From Pseudomonas kermanshahensis (GTDB lineage: Bacteria; Pseudomonadota; Gammaproteobacteria; Pseudomonadales; Pseudomonadaceae), in assembly GCF_014269205.2 (NCBI RefSeq), contig NZ_JABWRY020000002.1, forward strand, positions 27,501 to 91,500: a stretch of 64,000 nt of DNA, in the 5' to 3' direction. Shown in pieces: positions 5,027 through 10,454 of the stretch. Every line of letters starts with the position of its first letter. Position 1 is the stretch's first letter. The translations under genes were made by a program, and so were the position numbers. Under the pieces are notes generated by a model, which was not told where the DNA came from, ran no database searches, and saw only the letters and a program-made list of their open reading frames with translations.

Positions 5027-6520
5027 ATGTACCGTGATCGTATCCGCTTGTCCTCCCTGCACAGCAAGGTAATGAGTGCGGCTGATGCCGCTGGTCTGAT
5101 CGAGGACGGCATGACCGTCGGCATGAGCGGCTTCACCCGCGCCGGCGAAGCCAAGGCCGTACCCCATGCCCTGGCCGAACGTGCCAAGCAGTCGCCGCTG
5201 AAAATCAGCCTGATGACCGGCGCCAGCCTGGGCAATGACCTGGACAAGCAGCTGACCGAGGCCGGCGTGCTGGCTCGCCGCATGCCCTTCCAGGTCGACA
5301 GCACCCTGCGCAAGGCCATCAACGACGGCCAGGTGATGTTCATCGACCAGCACCTGTCGGAAACCGTCGAGCAATTGCGCAACCAGCAGCTCAAGCTGCC
5401 GGACATCGCCGTCATCGAAGCCGTGGCCATCACCGAACAAGGCCATATCGTGCCGACCACCTCGGTAGGCAACTCGGCCAGCTTCGCGATCTTCGCCAAG
5501 CAAGTGATCGTCGAGATCAACCTGTCGCACAACGCCAACCTCGAAGGCCTGCACGACATCTATATCCCGACCTACCGCCCAACCCGCACACCGATCCCGC
5601 TGGTCAAGGTCGATGATCGCATCGGCAGCACCGCCATCCCGATCGACCCGGCCAAGATCGTCGGTATCGTCATCAGCGACCAGCCGGACTCGCCATCCAC
5701 TGTATTGCCGCCGGACGACGAAACCCAGGGCATCGCCGACCACCTGATCAACTTCCTCAAGAAGGAAGTCGACGCTGGCCGCATGACCAACAAGCTCGGC
5801 CCACTGCAGGCCGGTATCGGCAGCATCGCCAACGCGGTGATGTGCGGCTTGATCGATTCGCCGTTCGAAGACCTGACTATGTACTCCGAAGTACTGCAGG
5901 ATTCGACCTTCGACCTGATCGACGCCGGCAAGCTGAGCTTCGCCTCCGGCAGCTCAATCACCCTGTCGACCCGCCGCAATGCCGATGTGTTCGGTAACCT
6001 GGAGCGCTACAAGGACAAGCTGGTGCTGCGCCCACAGGAGATCTCCAACCACCCAGAGGTGGTCCGTCGCCTGGGCATCATTGGTATCAACACCGCGCTG
6101 GAGTTCGATATCTACGGCAACGTCAACTCCACCCACGTGTGCGGCACGCGGATGATGAACGGCATCGGTGGTTCTGGCGATTTCGCCCGTAACGCGCACC
6201 TGGCCGTGTTCGTCACCAAGTCGATTGCCAAGGGTGGCGCGATTTCCAGCGTGGTGCCGATGGTCAGCCACGTCGACCACACCGAGCACGACGTCGACAT
6301 CCTGGTCACTGAGCAGGGGCTTGCAGACTTGCGCGGCCTTGCGCCACGCGAGCGTGCCCGGGCAATCATCGACAACTGTGTGCACCCGGATTACCGCGCA
6401 GCGCTGAACGACTACTTCGATCGCGCCTGCCAGCGCGGCGGCCATACGCCGCACATTCTGCGCGAAGCATTGAGCTGGCACGAAAACCTGGAAGAGACCG
6501 GGCGCATGCTCGCCAGCTGA
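5027..6520 (+). CDS. Acetyl-CoA hydrolase/transferase family: succinyl-CoA:acetate-type CoA-transferase
   Basis: 497 residues, matching the SCACT/AarC/YgfH subgroup that moves CoA between succinyl-CoA, acetate or propionate. Seen: N-terminal DGMTVGMSGFTRAGEAKAVP, the central VGNSASFAIFAKQVIVEIN segment, MYSEVLQDSTFDLIDAGKL holding the conserved glutamate that carries the CoA thioester in this family, and a C-terminal half with VVPMVSHVDHTEHDVDILVTEQGLADLRGL. Alone in its transcription unit, 187 bp after pntB and beyond that operon's terminator. The exact acyl donor and acceptor cannot be read from sequence. Annotation as acetyl-CoA hydrolase is common, but transferase is more likely. Confidence 0.85.
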   Translation: MYRDRIRLSSLHSKVMSAADAAGLIEDGMTVGMSGFTRAGEAKAVPHALAERAKQSPLKISLMTGASLGNDLDKQLTEAGVLARRMPFQVDSTLRKAINDGQVMFIDQHLSETVEQLRNQQLKLPDIAVIEAVAITEQGHIVPTTSVGNSASFAIFAKQVIVEINLSHNANLEGLHDIYIPTYRPTRTPIPLVKVDDRIGSTAIPIDPAKIVGIVISDQPDSPSTVLPPDDETQGIADHLINFLKKEVDAGRMTNKLGPLQAGIGSIANAVMCGLIDSPFEDLTMYSEVLQDSTFDLIDAGKLSFASGSSITLSTRRNADVFGNLERYKDKLVLRPQEISNHPEVVRRLGIIGINTALEFDIYGNVNSTHVCGTRMMNGIGGSGDFARNAHLAVFVTKSIAKGGAISSVVPMVSHVDHTEHDVDILVTEQGLADLRGLAPRERARAIIDNCVHPDYRAALNDYFDRACQRGGHTPHILREALSWHENLEETGRMLAS

Positions 6521-6678: not shown

Positions 6679-6850
6679 ACTGTACTACTGTACTGGTATT
6701 TTTAGCTGACCCTCTGCTGACCACCTCTCCCTACCGAGCATTTTGCACCATATAAGTGCAGACCAGTACAGTTGCGCCTATTTCGAGTGCAACAGTAGGA
6801 TTACACAGTTAACTGAACCATCGTAATGCCGCAGAACTGTATCTACTGTT
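6679..6850. promoter_or_regulatory. Cluster of ACTGTACT-type repeats upstream of the DUF1127 gene
   Basis: The 406-bp gap 6521-6926 has no gene but several copies of one word: tandem ACTGTACT at 6679-6686 and 6687-6694 (extended TACTGTACTGGTA, 6686-6698), the inverted copy CCAGTACAGT at 6763-6772, a perfect palindrome CAGTTAACTG at 6806-6815 and a degenerate pair ACTGTATCTACTGTT at 6836-6850. An inverted copy of the 13-mer recurs at 7281-7293. Repeated, oppositely oriented short words of this composition suit a dimeric regulator; CTGTAC-type sites are known for MocR/GntR-family regulators, so that family is a guess. Confidence 0.5.
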
Positions 6851-6926: not shown

Positions 6927-7142
6927 ATGGAACGTACACTCAGTTCCGGTCTGGTTTTTGAAAGCAACGCCCAACAATCCAACGCTTCGATGCCTCTGCG
7001 CGCCCTGTCCACCCTGCTGTTGTGGCAGCGTCGCATGGCCAGCCGCCGTCAACTGGCTCGCCTGGACTCCCGCCTGCTGGCCGACGCCGGTATCAGCGAG
7101 TCGCAGCGTTACGAAGAGCTGAGCAAGCCTTTCTGGCGCTAA
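6927..7142 (+). CDS. DUF1127 (YjiS-like) small protein
   Basis: 71 residues. The C-terminal half carries the DUF1127 arginine-rich signature: LLLWQRRMASRRQLARLDSRLLADAGIS followed by a short tail. The N-terminal 25 residues are low-complexity and not conserved. GGAAGGATG lies 5' of the ATG. Short DUF1127 proteins of this kind have been linked to RNA turnover and phosphate or carbon metabolism in alphaproteobacteria; in pseudomonads the role is unknown. Single-gene unit with a long, repeat-filled promoter region and its own terminator, which suggests tightly controlled and probably strong expression. Confidence 0.85.
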   Translation: MERTLSSGLVFESNAQQSNASMPLRALSTLLLWQRRMASRRQLARLDSRLLADAGISESQRYEELSKPFWR

Positions 7143-7182
7143 GCTCCGGCTTGCCGGCTATGCCCGGCACCGCGAATTCCTA

Positions 7183-7215
7183 AACCCGTTGCAGGTGACT
7201 GCAGCGGGTTTTTTG
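7183..7215 (+). terminator. Terminator of the DUF1127 gene
   Basis: Stem AACCCG..GCAG (7183-7194) / CTGC..CGGGTT (7199-7210) with a GTGA loop and a small internal loop, followed by TTTTGTTTGT. Confidence 0.85.
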
Positions 7216-7250: not shown

Positions 7251-7295
7251 ACAGGTACAGTTTCTTATAAAGCAAAAACATACCAGTACAGTACT
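7251..7295. promoter_or_regulatory. GGTACAGT/CCAGTACAGTACT repeats upstream of the DUF2388 cluster
   Basis: ACAGGTACAGTTT (7251-7263) and TACCAGTACAGTACT (7281-7295). The latter contains the exact reverse complement (7281-7293) of the 13-mer in front of the DUF1127 gene. The region 145-190 bp before the first DUF2388 start is therefore likely bound by the same factor. A small hairpin TCTGGT-AGAA-ACCAGA (7355-7370) lies between these sites and the gene. Confidence 0.5.
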
Positions 7296-7437: not shown

Positions 7438-7755
7438 ATGTCCCTTAAACACCTGATTGGCGCCGCCCTGATGCTGAGCTTGGCCGGCACCGCCAGCGCC
7501 ACCAGCTTCGTCGTCACCACTGACGCAGTCGTGGGCGCTGTCGCTGCATCCACCGACGCCACCTCCGACGTATCGTCGTCGTTCCGCGACGACAAGATCG
7601 TCCAAGCCGCCCGTGACGATGCCGCCAGCTTCGTTGGCAGCCAAGGCGACATTCGCGGCGCCAAGCTGGAAAGCGCCTTCCTGCACATTCGCGCACAAAT
7701 GCCGACCCTGCAGGCTACCGACGCACAGCTGGCACAGGCCATCCTGGCCATCTGA
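7438..7755 (+). CDS. DUF2388 family secreted protein, first of three tandem paralogues
   Basis: 105 residues. Clear Sec signal peptide (MSLKHLIGAALMLSLAGTASA, cleavage near residue 21), so periplasmic or secreted. The mature part is about 84 residues with no cysteine. Shared family pattern near the C-terminus: K(I/V/L)V-x3-A-(R/H)DDAA(S/A)FV, G-D-I-R-G-A-x-L-E-x-A-F and a closing LA-x-AILA. AGGAGTCC ribosome site upstream. Function unknown; the family is mainly known from Pseudomonas, where tandem copies are typical. First gene after the shared repeat sites, in one apparent transcript with the next three genes. Confidence 0.85.
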   Translation: MSLKHLIGAALMLSLAGTASATSFVVTTDAVVGAVAASTDATSDVSSSFRDDKIVQAARDDAASFVGSQGDIRGAKLESAFLHIRAQMPTLQATDAQLAQAILAI

Positions 7756-7839
7756 CCTGCACTGAGCCCTGCGGCTGTACGGGTGCTCGCCCACAGCCGC
7801 AGGTGTCTTCACCCCCTCGTTCCCAGCCGTCAGAAGCCC

Positions 7840-8145
7840 ATGCGTTATCTGTTGCCGTTGTTGTTAGTCGCCGTTGGCATCCCCCTGAGCATGGCACCTG
7901 CCCATGCGTTGGACACCACCACGCAAAGCCTGGTCATCACAGGCTATGTCACCAGCCAAGTCACCACCGCGCCGTTCGACCGCAAACTGGTCAGTCAGGC
8001 CCGTGACGATGCTGCGGCATTCGTCGCCAGCGATGGCCTGATCCTCGGTGCGCGCCTGGAAGCGGCCTTCACCTCGCTGCGCCAGCACGGTGCCGCACAG
8101 GCTGTCGGCGACCTGGAACTGGCGCAGGCAATTCTCGTCCAATGA
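7840..8145 (+). CDS. DUF2388 family secreted protein, second paralogue
   Basis: 101 residues from the ATG at 7840 (MRYLLPLLLVAVGIPLSMAP...), chosen because it starts a proper signal peptide ending at AHA (about residue 22); upstream in-frame codons are not signal-like. The mature part has the same RDDAAAFVASDG and GARLEAAFTSLR blocks, but a diverged tail (LAQAILVQ) and a replaced segment where the first paralogue has DIRGAK. 84 bp after the first copy and 36 bp before the third. Function unknown. Confidence 0.82.
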   Translation: MRYLLPLLLVAVGIPLSMAPAHALDTTTQSLVITGYVTSQVTTAPFDRKLVSQARDDAAAFVASDGLILGARLEAAFTSLRQHGAAQAVGDLELAQAILVQ

Positions 8146-8181
8146 CTACACCTGACTCCCTGTATTTTCCGGAGATGCTCC

Positions 8182-8502
8182 ATGCGTAAACCGCTGATTG
8201 CCGCTACCCTCGGCATGCTGCTGCTGGCCGACCTGGCCCAGGCACAGACGCTGGTGGCCACCAGCAACATCATCGTGCGTGCCTTTGGCCGTTCGATCGA
8301 TTTCACGTCCGACACCACCACCTCGATCCGTGACTCCAAAGTCGTGCGTGAAGCGCACGACGATGCCGCCAGCTTCGTCGCCAGCAACGGTGATATCCGT
8401 GGCGCCCAGCTTGAAGCTGCGTTCAATACCCTGCGCGAGCGCCTGCCTGAAGCGCGAGGCGCCAGCGACCAAGTGCTGGCTGAAGCCATTCTCGCGCTGT
8501 GA
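8182..8502 (+). CDS. DUF2388 family secreted protein, third paralogue
   Basis: 106 residues with a signal peptide (MRKPLIAATLGMLLLADLAQA, cleavage near residue 21). The mature sequence contains HDDAASFVASNGDIRGAQLEAAF, close to the first paralogue. A GGAG site precedes the ATG by about 8 bases. Its stop codon overlaps the GTG start of the next gene (GTGA), so the large HExxH/DUF4105 protein is translationally coupled to it. This coupling is the best clue that the small and large proteins work in one process. Confidence 0.85.
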   Translation: MRKPLIAATLGMLLLADLAQAQTLVATSNIIVRAFGRSIDFTSDTTTSIRDSKVVREAHDDAASFVASNGDIRGAQLEAAFNTLRERLPEARGASDQVLAEAILAL

Positions 8503-10454
8503 ACCAGGTGCGTGCCTGGCTGCTCGGCTGCGCCCTGACGCTGCTCGGCACACCCGCCCTGGCCGACCTGCAGCTTGAGCTGCAGGCTTCCGGCCTCGAC
8601 CCTCAACAACGCCAAGCCAGCCAGGCACTGCTCGACGAAGCACTGAGCAAGCTGCCGCCGCGCTTCAAGCAGCAACTGGACCGGCGTGTGCAGGTCAGCT
8701 GGACTGCGCGCATGCCGGCCGACGCGTACGGCCAGGCGTCGCTGGTTTCTACCCTGGAGCTCAACAGCCGCCTGCTGCCCGGGCTGGTTGATGGCAGCGC
8801 CGCCCGCGAACGCACCCACCGCCCACACGGCACCGTGCGCGAAGAGCTGCTGGCGACTGTCCTGCATGAACTGACCCATATTTACGACCGGGCCCGGTTG
8901 TGGCCGGCCACCGAGCGCTCGCTGATCGCCCGTTGCAAGCGCCAGCAAGGCACCGTGGGCAAAATCGGCTTGCCAGAGGCGTGCCGCGGCCAGGCCGAAC
9001 GGCGCTTCACCTTGAGCGATGACCCACGCCTGCTCGACCTTGCTGGCTGGCAGCAATATGTCGGCCGCCGCGGTGAGCGCGAGCAGCACAACGGCCAGTT
9101 CGTGCGCAGCCCAGACACCTATGAGCTGAGCAGCCCCAAGGAATTCATCGCGGTCAACATGGAGTACTTCCTCCTCGACCCGAGCTATGCTTGCCGGCGC
9201 CCCGCCTTGAACCAGTACCTGCGCGACCACTTCGGCTGGGCACCCGCACAAGAGAGCTGCGCCAAGGGCTTGCCATTCCTCAACGCGGGCAGCGACTTCG
9301 CTCGCCAGCCACTGGGCGAAATCGACCCCGAACGCGTTTATGAAGTCGACTACCTGCTGGCCGAGGCCAATCAGAACTGGGTCAGCCGCTGGGGCCACAG
9401 CATGCTGCGCCTGGTCATCTGCAAACCTGGGCGACCGCGCGGCCCGGATTGCCGCCTAGACCTCGACCAGCACCTGGTGCTGTCGTACCGCGCCTTCGTC
9501 AACGATGTGCAGTTGTCCAGCTGGGACGGCCTGGTCGGTGCTTATCCGTCGCGGCTGTTCGTGTTGCCGTTGGGCCAGGTCATCGACGAGTACACCAAGA
9601 CCGAGCTGCGCAGCCTGGCGTCGATCCCCCTCAAGCTCGACCGCCAGGAAGTCGAGAACCTGGTGCGCCAGGCGGCGGAAATGCACTGGAGCTACGACGG
9701 CAATTACTACTTCCTGTCCAACAATTGCGCGGTCGAATCGCTGAAACTGCTGCGCAGTGGCACCGCCAACCCGCGCCTGAACGACCTCGACAGCATCATG
9801 CCCAACGGCCTGCTGGAAGTGCTCAAAGGGCGGGGCATTGCCGATACCAGTGTGCTCGATGACCCCCGCGAAGCCCTGCGCCTGGGTTACCGCTTCGACT
9901 CCTACCGTGACCGCTACCAGGCCATGTTCGACGTGCTGAAAAAACAGCTGCCGATCAAGCAGGACAAGGTCGAGGACTGGCTGGCCCTGGATGCCGAACA
10001 GCGCCGCGGCTGGTTCGCCCAGGCCGACCTGCGCACCAGCGCTGCCTTGCTGCTGCTCGAGCAGGCGAGCCTACGCCGCCAGCTGTTGCTGGCCCAGGAC
10101 GAGGTCAAGCAGCGCTACCTGAACGCGGCGGCGCTGAAGGATGGCAGTATCGACAAAGCCAACCAGACGCTGCAGCAGATGCTCGCCAACAGCGGCTTCC
10201 TCAGCCGCCCGGCAGAACTGCTGGACGCCAAAGGCTATGGTCTACCGCAGCCCGATGAGCGCAAGCACCTGGAGAAAGTCAGCAGCGAGCGGCAGGCCCA
10301 GTTGCTGCGCCTGAGCACCGACCTGGACAAAGAGGTGAGGGCGCTGCTGGACCCCTCGCGGGCCAAGGAGATTGCCGCGATCGAGACCAACGTGAAGCAG
10401 GTGGGTGAGCATCTGCGAACGCTGCACAAGGCCGCAGGCGGGTTGCAGTTGTAG
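8499..10454 (+). CDS. Secreted two-domain putative hydrolase: HExxH metallopeptidase-like region plus DUF4105
   Basis: 651 residues. Starts with GTG at 8499, overlapping the previous stop; a second GTG at 8508 is possible. A signal peptide (AWLLGCALTLLGTPALA) predicts export. Residues about 110-190 hold LLATVLHELTHIYDRARLW, a zincin-type HExxH motif, and a downstream SPKEFIAVNMEYFLLDP with the glutamate expected of such folds. Residues about 280-430 form DUF4105, which has a papain/NlpC-P60-like layout: WVSRWGHSMLRLVIC and YFLSNNCAVESLKLL supply candidate His and Cys. The last 150 residues are helical and coiled. Substrate unknown; peptidoglycan or envelope peptides are reasonable guesses. 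Confidence 0.8.
   Translation: MNQVRAWLLGCALTLLGTPALADLQLELQASGLDPQQRQASQALLDEALSKLPPRFKQQLDRRVQVSWTARMPADAYGQASLVSTLELNSRLLPGLVDGSAARERTHRPHGTVREELLATVLHELTHIYDRARLWPATERSLIARCKRQQGTVGKIGLPEACRGQAERRFTLSDDPRLLDLAGWQQYVGRRGEREQHNGQFVRSPDTYELSSPKEFIAVNMEYFLLDPSYACRRPALNQYLRDHFGWAPAQESCAKGLPFLNAGSDFARQPLGEIDPERVYEVDYLLAEANQNWVSRWGHSMLRLVICKPGRPRGPDCRLDLDQHLVLSYRAFVNDVQLSSWDGLVGAYPSRLFVLPLGQVIDEYTKTELRSLASIPLKLDRQEVENLVRQAAEMHWSYDGNYYFLSNNCAVESLKLLRSGTANPRLNDLDSIMPNGLLEVLKGRGIADTSVLDDPREALRLGYRFDSYRDRYQAMFDVLKKQLPIKQDKVEDWLALDAEQRRGWFAQADLRTSAALLLLEQASLRRQLLLAQDEVKQRYLNAAALKDGSIDKANQTLQQMLANSGFLSRPAELLDAKGYGLPQPDERKHLEKVSSERQAQLLRLSTDLDKEVRALLDPSRAKEIAAIETNVKQVGEHLRTLHKAAGGLQL

Follow-up and report, generated by a model that had tools for sequence, protein, structure and literature searches.

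Described relatives of the two enzyme domains

The closest described counterparts of the large protein considered here are the zincin MtfA and several enzymes of the permuted NlpC/P60 subgroup. MtfA (Mlc titration factor A) is a cytoplasmic protein, where it binds the repressor Mlc, and it uses the Glu residue of its (P)AECFAV segment as a zinc ligand. Lnb of Bacteroides N-acylates diacylated lipoproteins and possesses a membrane part besides its periplasmic domain.

According to excerpts of PMC12994826, the permuted NlpC/P60 members are lipid-specific: Bacteroides Lnb is a lipoprotein N-acyltransferase, its sister clade Tox-Act1 is a phospholipase, and TseH, for which an endopeptidase function had initially been suggested, was active as a lipase in one assay out of two. 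The DUF4105 clade is placed there mainly in Bacteroides and in some Firmicutes, so its function need not apply to a Pseudomonas protein. Excerpts of another paper offer for DUF4105 a guessed role with resistance transporters or in translocation (PMC10318531), and the Pseudomonas protein is not treated in the excerpts of either paper. In the open-licence literature, outside which most subscription papers lie, we found no functional study of DUF2388 or of DUF7844-Lnb_N proteins and no mention of TIGR02448, DUF7844, DUF7840, PF13387, PF25226 or PF09498, while in the accessible parts of the papers DUF2388 is mentioned in tables only.

Organization of the locus

The window, i.e. the whole 64,000-nucleotide stretch of Pseudomonas kermanshahensis DNA analyzed, contains three small ORFs and one ORF of 651 codons, all on the plus strand and located exactly as in the initial annotation. 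These are the genes coding for DUF2388 protein 1 (7438..7755, 105 aa), DUF2388 protein 2 (7840..8145, 101 aa from ATG, with a longer GTG reading from 7783 also present in the ORF list), DUF2388 protein 3 (8182..8502, 106 aa), and a DUF7844-Lnb_N two-domain protein with a helical C-terminus (8499..10454, 651 aa, GTG start). The overlap reported between the third small gene and the large one amounts to 4 nt (GTGA, 8499..8502), shared by the start codon GTG (8499) and the stop codon TGA (8500-8502). No clear Shine-Dalgarno sequence was seen by eye before this GTG, which together with the overlap fits termination-reinitiation coupling, and the third DUF2388 copy and the enzyme are probably made by coupled translation.

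Upstream of the locus there is a gene coding for succinyl-CoA:acetate CoA-transferase ScpC (5027-6520), and between it and the DUF2388 genes lies a DUF1127 gene (6927-7142; 71 aa, PF06568 33.1 bits versus a cut-off of 23.3). The latter is followed on its 3′ side by a terminator-like hairpin with a 13-pair stem and a T tail (7182..7211, plus strand), which is suggestive only of a unit starting at DUF2388 gene 1 and set apart from the DUF1127 gene, as three terminator-like sites were found in the scanned region versus 3.0 expected in shuffles. The sequence CCAGTACAGT occurs in three exact copies, at 6687-6696 (minus strand), 6763-6772 (plus strand) and 7283-7292 (plus strand), grouped in the intergenic regions 5′ of the DUF1127 gene and 5′ of DUF2388 gene 1. 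With no more than one mismatch, seven sites are present in the window versus 2.4 expected, and an exact copy is found in 9 of 241 loci; these copies are possibly sites of a regulator.

The two-domain protein

The AlphaFold2 model of the 651-aa protein has a mean pLDDT of 87.3 and a pTM of 0.85. Its N-terminal part is a DUF7844 domain (residues 25-253, 8571..9257, plus strand; PF25226, E 1.9e-117), in which the zincin motif proposed earlier for this protein was found as HELTH at residues 123-127 (8865..8879, plus strand). Glu215 (9141..9143, plus strand) is aligned with the Glu of the MtfA (P)AECFAV segment and is the candidate third zinc ligand. The HExxH motif of MtfA and peptidase family M90, with the downstream Glu of its E-x-F-A-V-like segment, is represented by H123, E124, H127 and E215, each conserved in 53 of 53 relatives and alignable to MtfA. 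In PDB, the profile built from the relatives matched MtfA in the chains 3dl1/3khi at E 3.7e-7 and in 9srw at E 4.9e-7, and PF06167 was detected at E<=0.1 in 40 of the 53 relatives (best 3.3e-8). The window protein itself scores 15.2 bits with PF06167, under the cut-off of 26.2, so the DUF7844 protein is related to PF06167 rather than a member of it. Judging by sequence, the DUF7844 domain is related to MtfA as a predicted gluzincin of the M90 type. The HExxH...Glu region is alignable between the two. Unlike MtfA, the window protein is fused to Lnb_N and predicted to be exported, and its signal-like N-terminus would speak against an MtfA-like cytoplasmic binding of Mlc.

The DUF4105 domain named in the initial annotation corresponds to Lnb_N, as PF13387 is now called in Pfam, at residues 272-432 (9312..9794, plus strand; E 2.8e-26, 92.6 bits versus a curated cut-off of 22.2). 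It is a permuted NlpC/P60 domain, in which the predicted catalytic His300 (9396..9398, plus strand) comes before the predicted nucleophile Cys410 (9726..9728, plus strand), both residues being conserved in 53 of 53 relatives. The best structural match of the domain is TseH, with a papain-like fold. The earlier designation "papain-like" holds for the fold; for relatives from this permuted subgroup, activity on lipids or acyl groups has been reported (excerpts of PMC12994826). The same fold, also noted in excerpts of PMC10318531, and the endopeptidase function originally proposed for TseH (PMC12994826, excerpts) could be taken to mean that Lnb_N is a peptidoglycan or protein peptidase with ordinary NlpC/P60 or papain activity, with the zincin maturing either Lnb_N or DUF2388; the permuted order of His and Cys, found in members described as lipid-specific, argues against this, and we consider it the least probable of the explanations discussed here.

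Like Bacteroides Lnb, the window protein contains an Lnb_N domain above the cut-off with His and Cys conserved, but it differs in having an extra zincin domain and a dedicated small partner. No transmembrane segment comparable to the Lnb membrane part was detected in it, as no 19-residue stretch exceeds 1.6 on the Kyte-Doolittle scale. TseH and Tox-Act1 are T6SS effectors, whereas the window enzyme was found in every one of the 99 sampled genomes of the genus, as a housekeeping gene would be, and the named neighbours of the locus (CoA-transferase, DUF1127, GFA) are not secretion-system genes.

The DUF2388 proteins

All three small proteins match PF09498 (DUF2388) with 93.8-106.9 bits versus a curated cut-off of 25 (E 5.3e-31, 6.4e-27 and 2.8e-30 for proteins 1, 2 and 3, respectively) and TIGR02448 with 101.6-132.1 bits versus a cut-off of 53.85 (E 7.2e-39 for protein 1). 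Their proposed paralogy is borne out by pairwise alignment scores 10-20 sd over shuffles and by the common core R/H-DDAA-S/A-FV ... GA-x-LE-x-AF, present as originally described. Protein 2 is the most divergent, with 37/101 identities to copy 1 and 44/98 to copy 3.

The four products of the locus have signal-like N-termini ending in AxA (as seen by eye), and none of them carries a lipobox. There is no Cys in the three window DUF2388 proteins, and only 3 of 156 DUF2388 cores contain one, so with Cys nearly always absent and no lipobox DUF2388 is not an ordinary lipoprotein substrate. Lys53 is nearly invariant: 86 of 87 aligned copies have Lys at this position, and Arg takes its place in at least loci L181 and L182. 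The model of protein 3 consists of short helices from about residue 51, in a block with pLDDT 81-91, the remainder having values of 51-60, and no fold match was found with this partly poor model as the query.

Conservation of the gene pair

The genome samples used (genus, class, Xanthomonas family and phylum) overlap, and the counts given below are not phylogenetically independent. Within the window's genus, all 99 genomes contain both DUF2388 and DUF7844, with one DUF7844 gene above the cut-off per genome (in two pieces in G076), extra matches below the cut-off in G024 and G068, and enzyme frames of only 396 and 400 codons in G034 and G080. At the class level (n=229), DUF2388 is present in four genomes and DUF7844 in five above the cut-off plus two below it. 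The fifth genome, G109, has a divergent DUF7844-Lnb_N protein (L026) with no DUF2388 match; it consists of 190 contigs and comes from another gamma-proteobacterial family, and the contig holds only 811 bases upstream of the gene.

The Xanthomonas family, which NCBI lists as Lysobacteraceae, was represented by 99 genomes, of which 37 possess DUF2388 and 38 possess DUF7844, with 37 in common (Fisher p 1.8e-26, a value that ignores relatedness); the single genome with DUF7844 alone, G355, is 87% complete and consists of about 520 contigs. DUF2388 lies directly upstream of DUF7844 on the same strand in 37 of these 37 genomes. In the phylum sample (n=398) the 23 genomes with DUF2388 and the 23 with DUF7844 above the cut-off are identical sets, and matches below the cut-off occur in six and eight genomes, respectively.

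When loci were read directly, DUF2388 was immediately upstream of the enzyme gene in 51 of 52 anonymous loci, and the script found the same in 79 of the 80 named loci, which represent the best 80 of 567 relatives. In the 80th, from Pseudoxanthomonas suwonensis (L179, 5863-7643), the DUF2388 frame ends at 5863 and the enzyme gene from 6001 is apparently broken by a frameshift or an assembly error. Taking the first in-frame ATG, GTG or TTG as the start, 39 of 51 anonymous loci and 52 of 79 named ones keep the 4-nt overlap, with some genomes shared by the two sets. Within 23 sampled loci (18 and 5 from the two families), the only listed ORF clusters common to both families are the enzyme and its antisense shadow, clusters of fewer than five loci and ORFs shorter than 100 aa being left out of the list.

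The genome-wide comparison of DUF2388 with DUF4105 genes proposed in the initial annotation thus gave the same genomes, adjacent genes and DUF2388 in the first position, and the suggested union of DUF2388 and the large protein in one functional unit gains strong support from it. Since two bacterial families have kept the pair, the observation is not due to chance, and DUF2388 and DUF7844-Lnb_N are very likely linked in function, acting together in the envelope. The description of the family as Pseudomonas-centred is right for Pseudomonas but too narrow, given the 37 of 99 Xanthomonas-family genomes. It is very unlikely that the genes merely share an operon as co-transcribed envelope-stress or starvation genes with separate jobs and no direct contact, because the pair is kept across the two families while the flanking genes differ; a CbrB ChIP peak listed at PP0153 (excerpts of PMC6296734), a weak lead, would favour such an arrangement, PP0153 being by a guess the counterpart of this locus.

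A second Lnb_N protein and DUF3015

The other Lnb_N protein of the genome has the domain order DUF7843-Lnb_N-DUF7840 (C1:332417-334775; L006/L030), and a gene for a small exported DUF3015 protein is located directly 5′ of its gene. Out of 158 class genomes, DUF3015 was found in 28 and DUF7840 in 34, with 28 in common, leaving six of the 34 without a DUF3015 match. Of 36 DUF3015 matches, counted as HMM hits of which some are pieces of one gene, 33 have a same-strand DUF7840 no more than 3.5 kb away and three have none within that distance. Three of the 33 were flagged as downstream by the script, including G210:101405, for which the script took the first neighbour although another DUF7840, at 103082, is closer and follows the usual order. 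DUF3015 also appears in Leptospira, in a table row among down-regulated iron-related genes (excerpts of PMC13066512), its only mention found in the open-licence literature, so the family reaches beyond the gamma-proteobacteria.

Both Lnb_N genes have a gene for a small exported protein immediately on their 5′ side, but the accessory domains differ and the DUF2388 and DUF3015 profiles have no detectable similarity (hhalign E 0.39). From these two cases in one genome, small exported partners may generally accompany Lnb_N enzymes here. The parallel could indicate that Lnb_N enzymes of this kind need a small exported helper, and the order of a small gene followed with an overlap by the enzyme gene would also agree with DUF2388 acting as a folding chaperone or a delivery factor, either for the enzyme or for the lipid or protein on which the enzyme acts. 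We find this unlikely, considering the dissimilarity of the two small families, the existence of unlinked DUF2388 copies and the lack of a fold match for the partly poor DUF2388 model.

Proposed role of the DUF2388 proteins

In the genus sample (n=99) the number of DUF2388 matches per genome varies from 2 to 9 with a median of 5, whereas each of 37 Xanthomonas-family genomes has one. The P. kermanshahensis genome contains five copies, two of them unlinked to the locus and adjoining genes that by eye are gcvP-like and glcD-like. Small proteins in varying number around a single enzyme would be expected of an enzyme with clients and less of a dedicated inhibitor, and this asymmetry makes a client or substrate role, ranked ahead of a regulatory one, our best guess. 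Four roles were initially suggested for the small proteins (substrate, activator, inhibitor or chaperone) with no preference among them, and the substrate role is the one singled out here.

We therefore tentatively propose, as a reading slightly more doubtful than probable, that the four genes make up a single unit of the envelope, in which DUF2388 proteins are exported clients processed and/or modified by the two-domain enzyme. The large protein would be exported and work as an enzyme in the periplasm through two catalytic domains, the zinc domain acting as an MtfA-like peptidase (gluzincin), and the permuted NlpC/P60 domain most likely forming an acyl-enzyme on Cys410 and moving or hydrolysing acyl groups, as the characterized relatives do; this chemistry we infer on good grounds. 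The DUF2388 proteins, encoded just upstream and presumably on the same transcript, would be its dedicated small clients, touched directly by the enzyme, and Pseudomonas would have multiplied the substrate to 2-9 copies round a single enzyme. The "envelope maturation system" of the initial annotation is plausible in the light of the signal-like N-termini and conserved cysteines.

The 1:1 ratio in the Xanthomonas family suits a subunit or an inhibitor as well as a substrate. DUF2388 might accordingly be a stoichiometric regulatory subunit, an activator or a periplasmic inhibitor restraining both active sites until the enzyme is required, with extra copies tuning the enzyme by condition. Besides the single copy in that family, the likely coupled translation with the last DUF2388 copy, the unlinked copies in other contexts and, as a weak lead, the approximately 5-fold increase of PP_3743, a P. 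putida DUF2388 gene, in an alr mutant (excerpts of PMC6034422) are consistent with it. Two to nine matches per enzyme in the genus would be an unusual ratio if DUF2388 were a dedicated subunit or inhibitor, and we regard this possibility as a rather doubtful one.

Mean-field coupling analysis of 114 DUF2388-enzyme pairs gave scattered residue pairs. Mutual information between the partners was higher than in every one of 60 within-clade shuffles. Shared ancestry would by itself give the same result, and the excess is no proof of contact since unrelated proteins of the same genomes would exceed the shuffles too.

A more specific form of the client reading is a lipobox-independent lipidation or maturation, in which the zincin would trim DUF2388 and the Cys-His domain would acylate it from a phospholipid, the acyl acceptor being the new N-terminus or Lys53, which would anchor the protein in the envelope without a lipoprotein Cys. 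We judge it improbable; if true, the cell would have a second pathway of this kind in the DUF3015 - DUF7840/Lnb_N pair.

Both families are present in 99 of 99 sampled genomes of the genus, yet no functional study of them was found in the open-licence literature. Considering DUF2388 and the enzyme as one unit, in which a zincin of the MtfA type is fused to an Lnb-type domain, would give these orphan families a place in an envelope pathway that can be tested, and it suggests that gamma-proteobacterial Lnb_N enzymes come with dedicated small exported partners.
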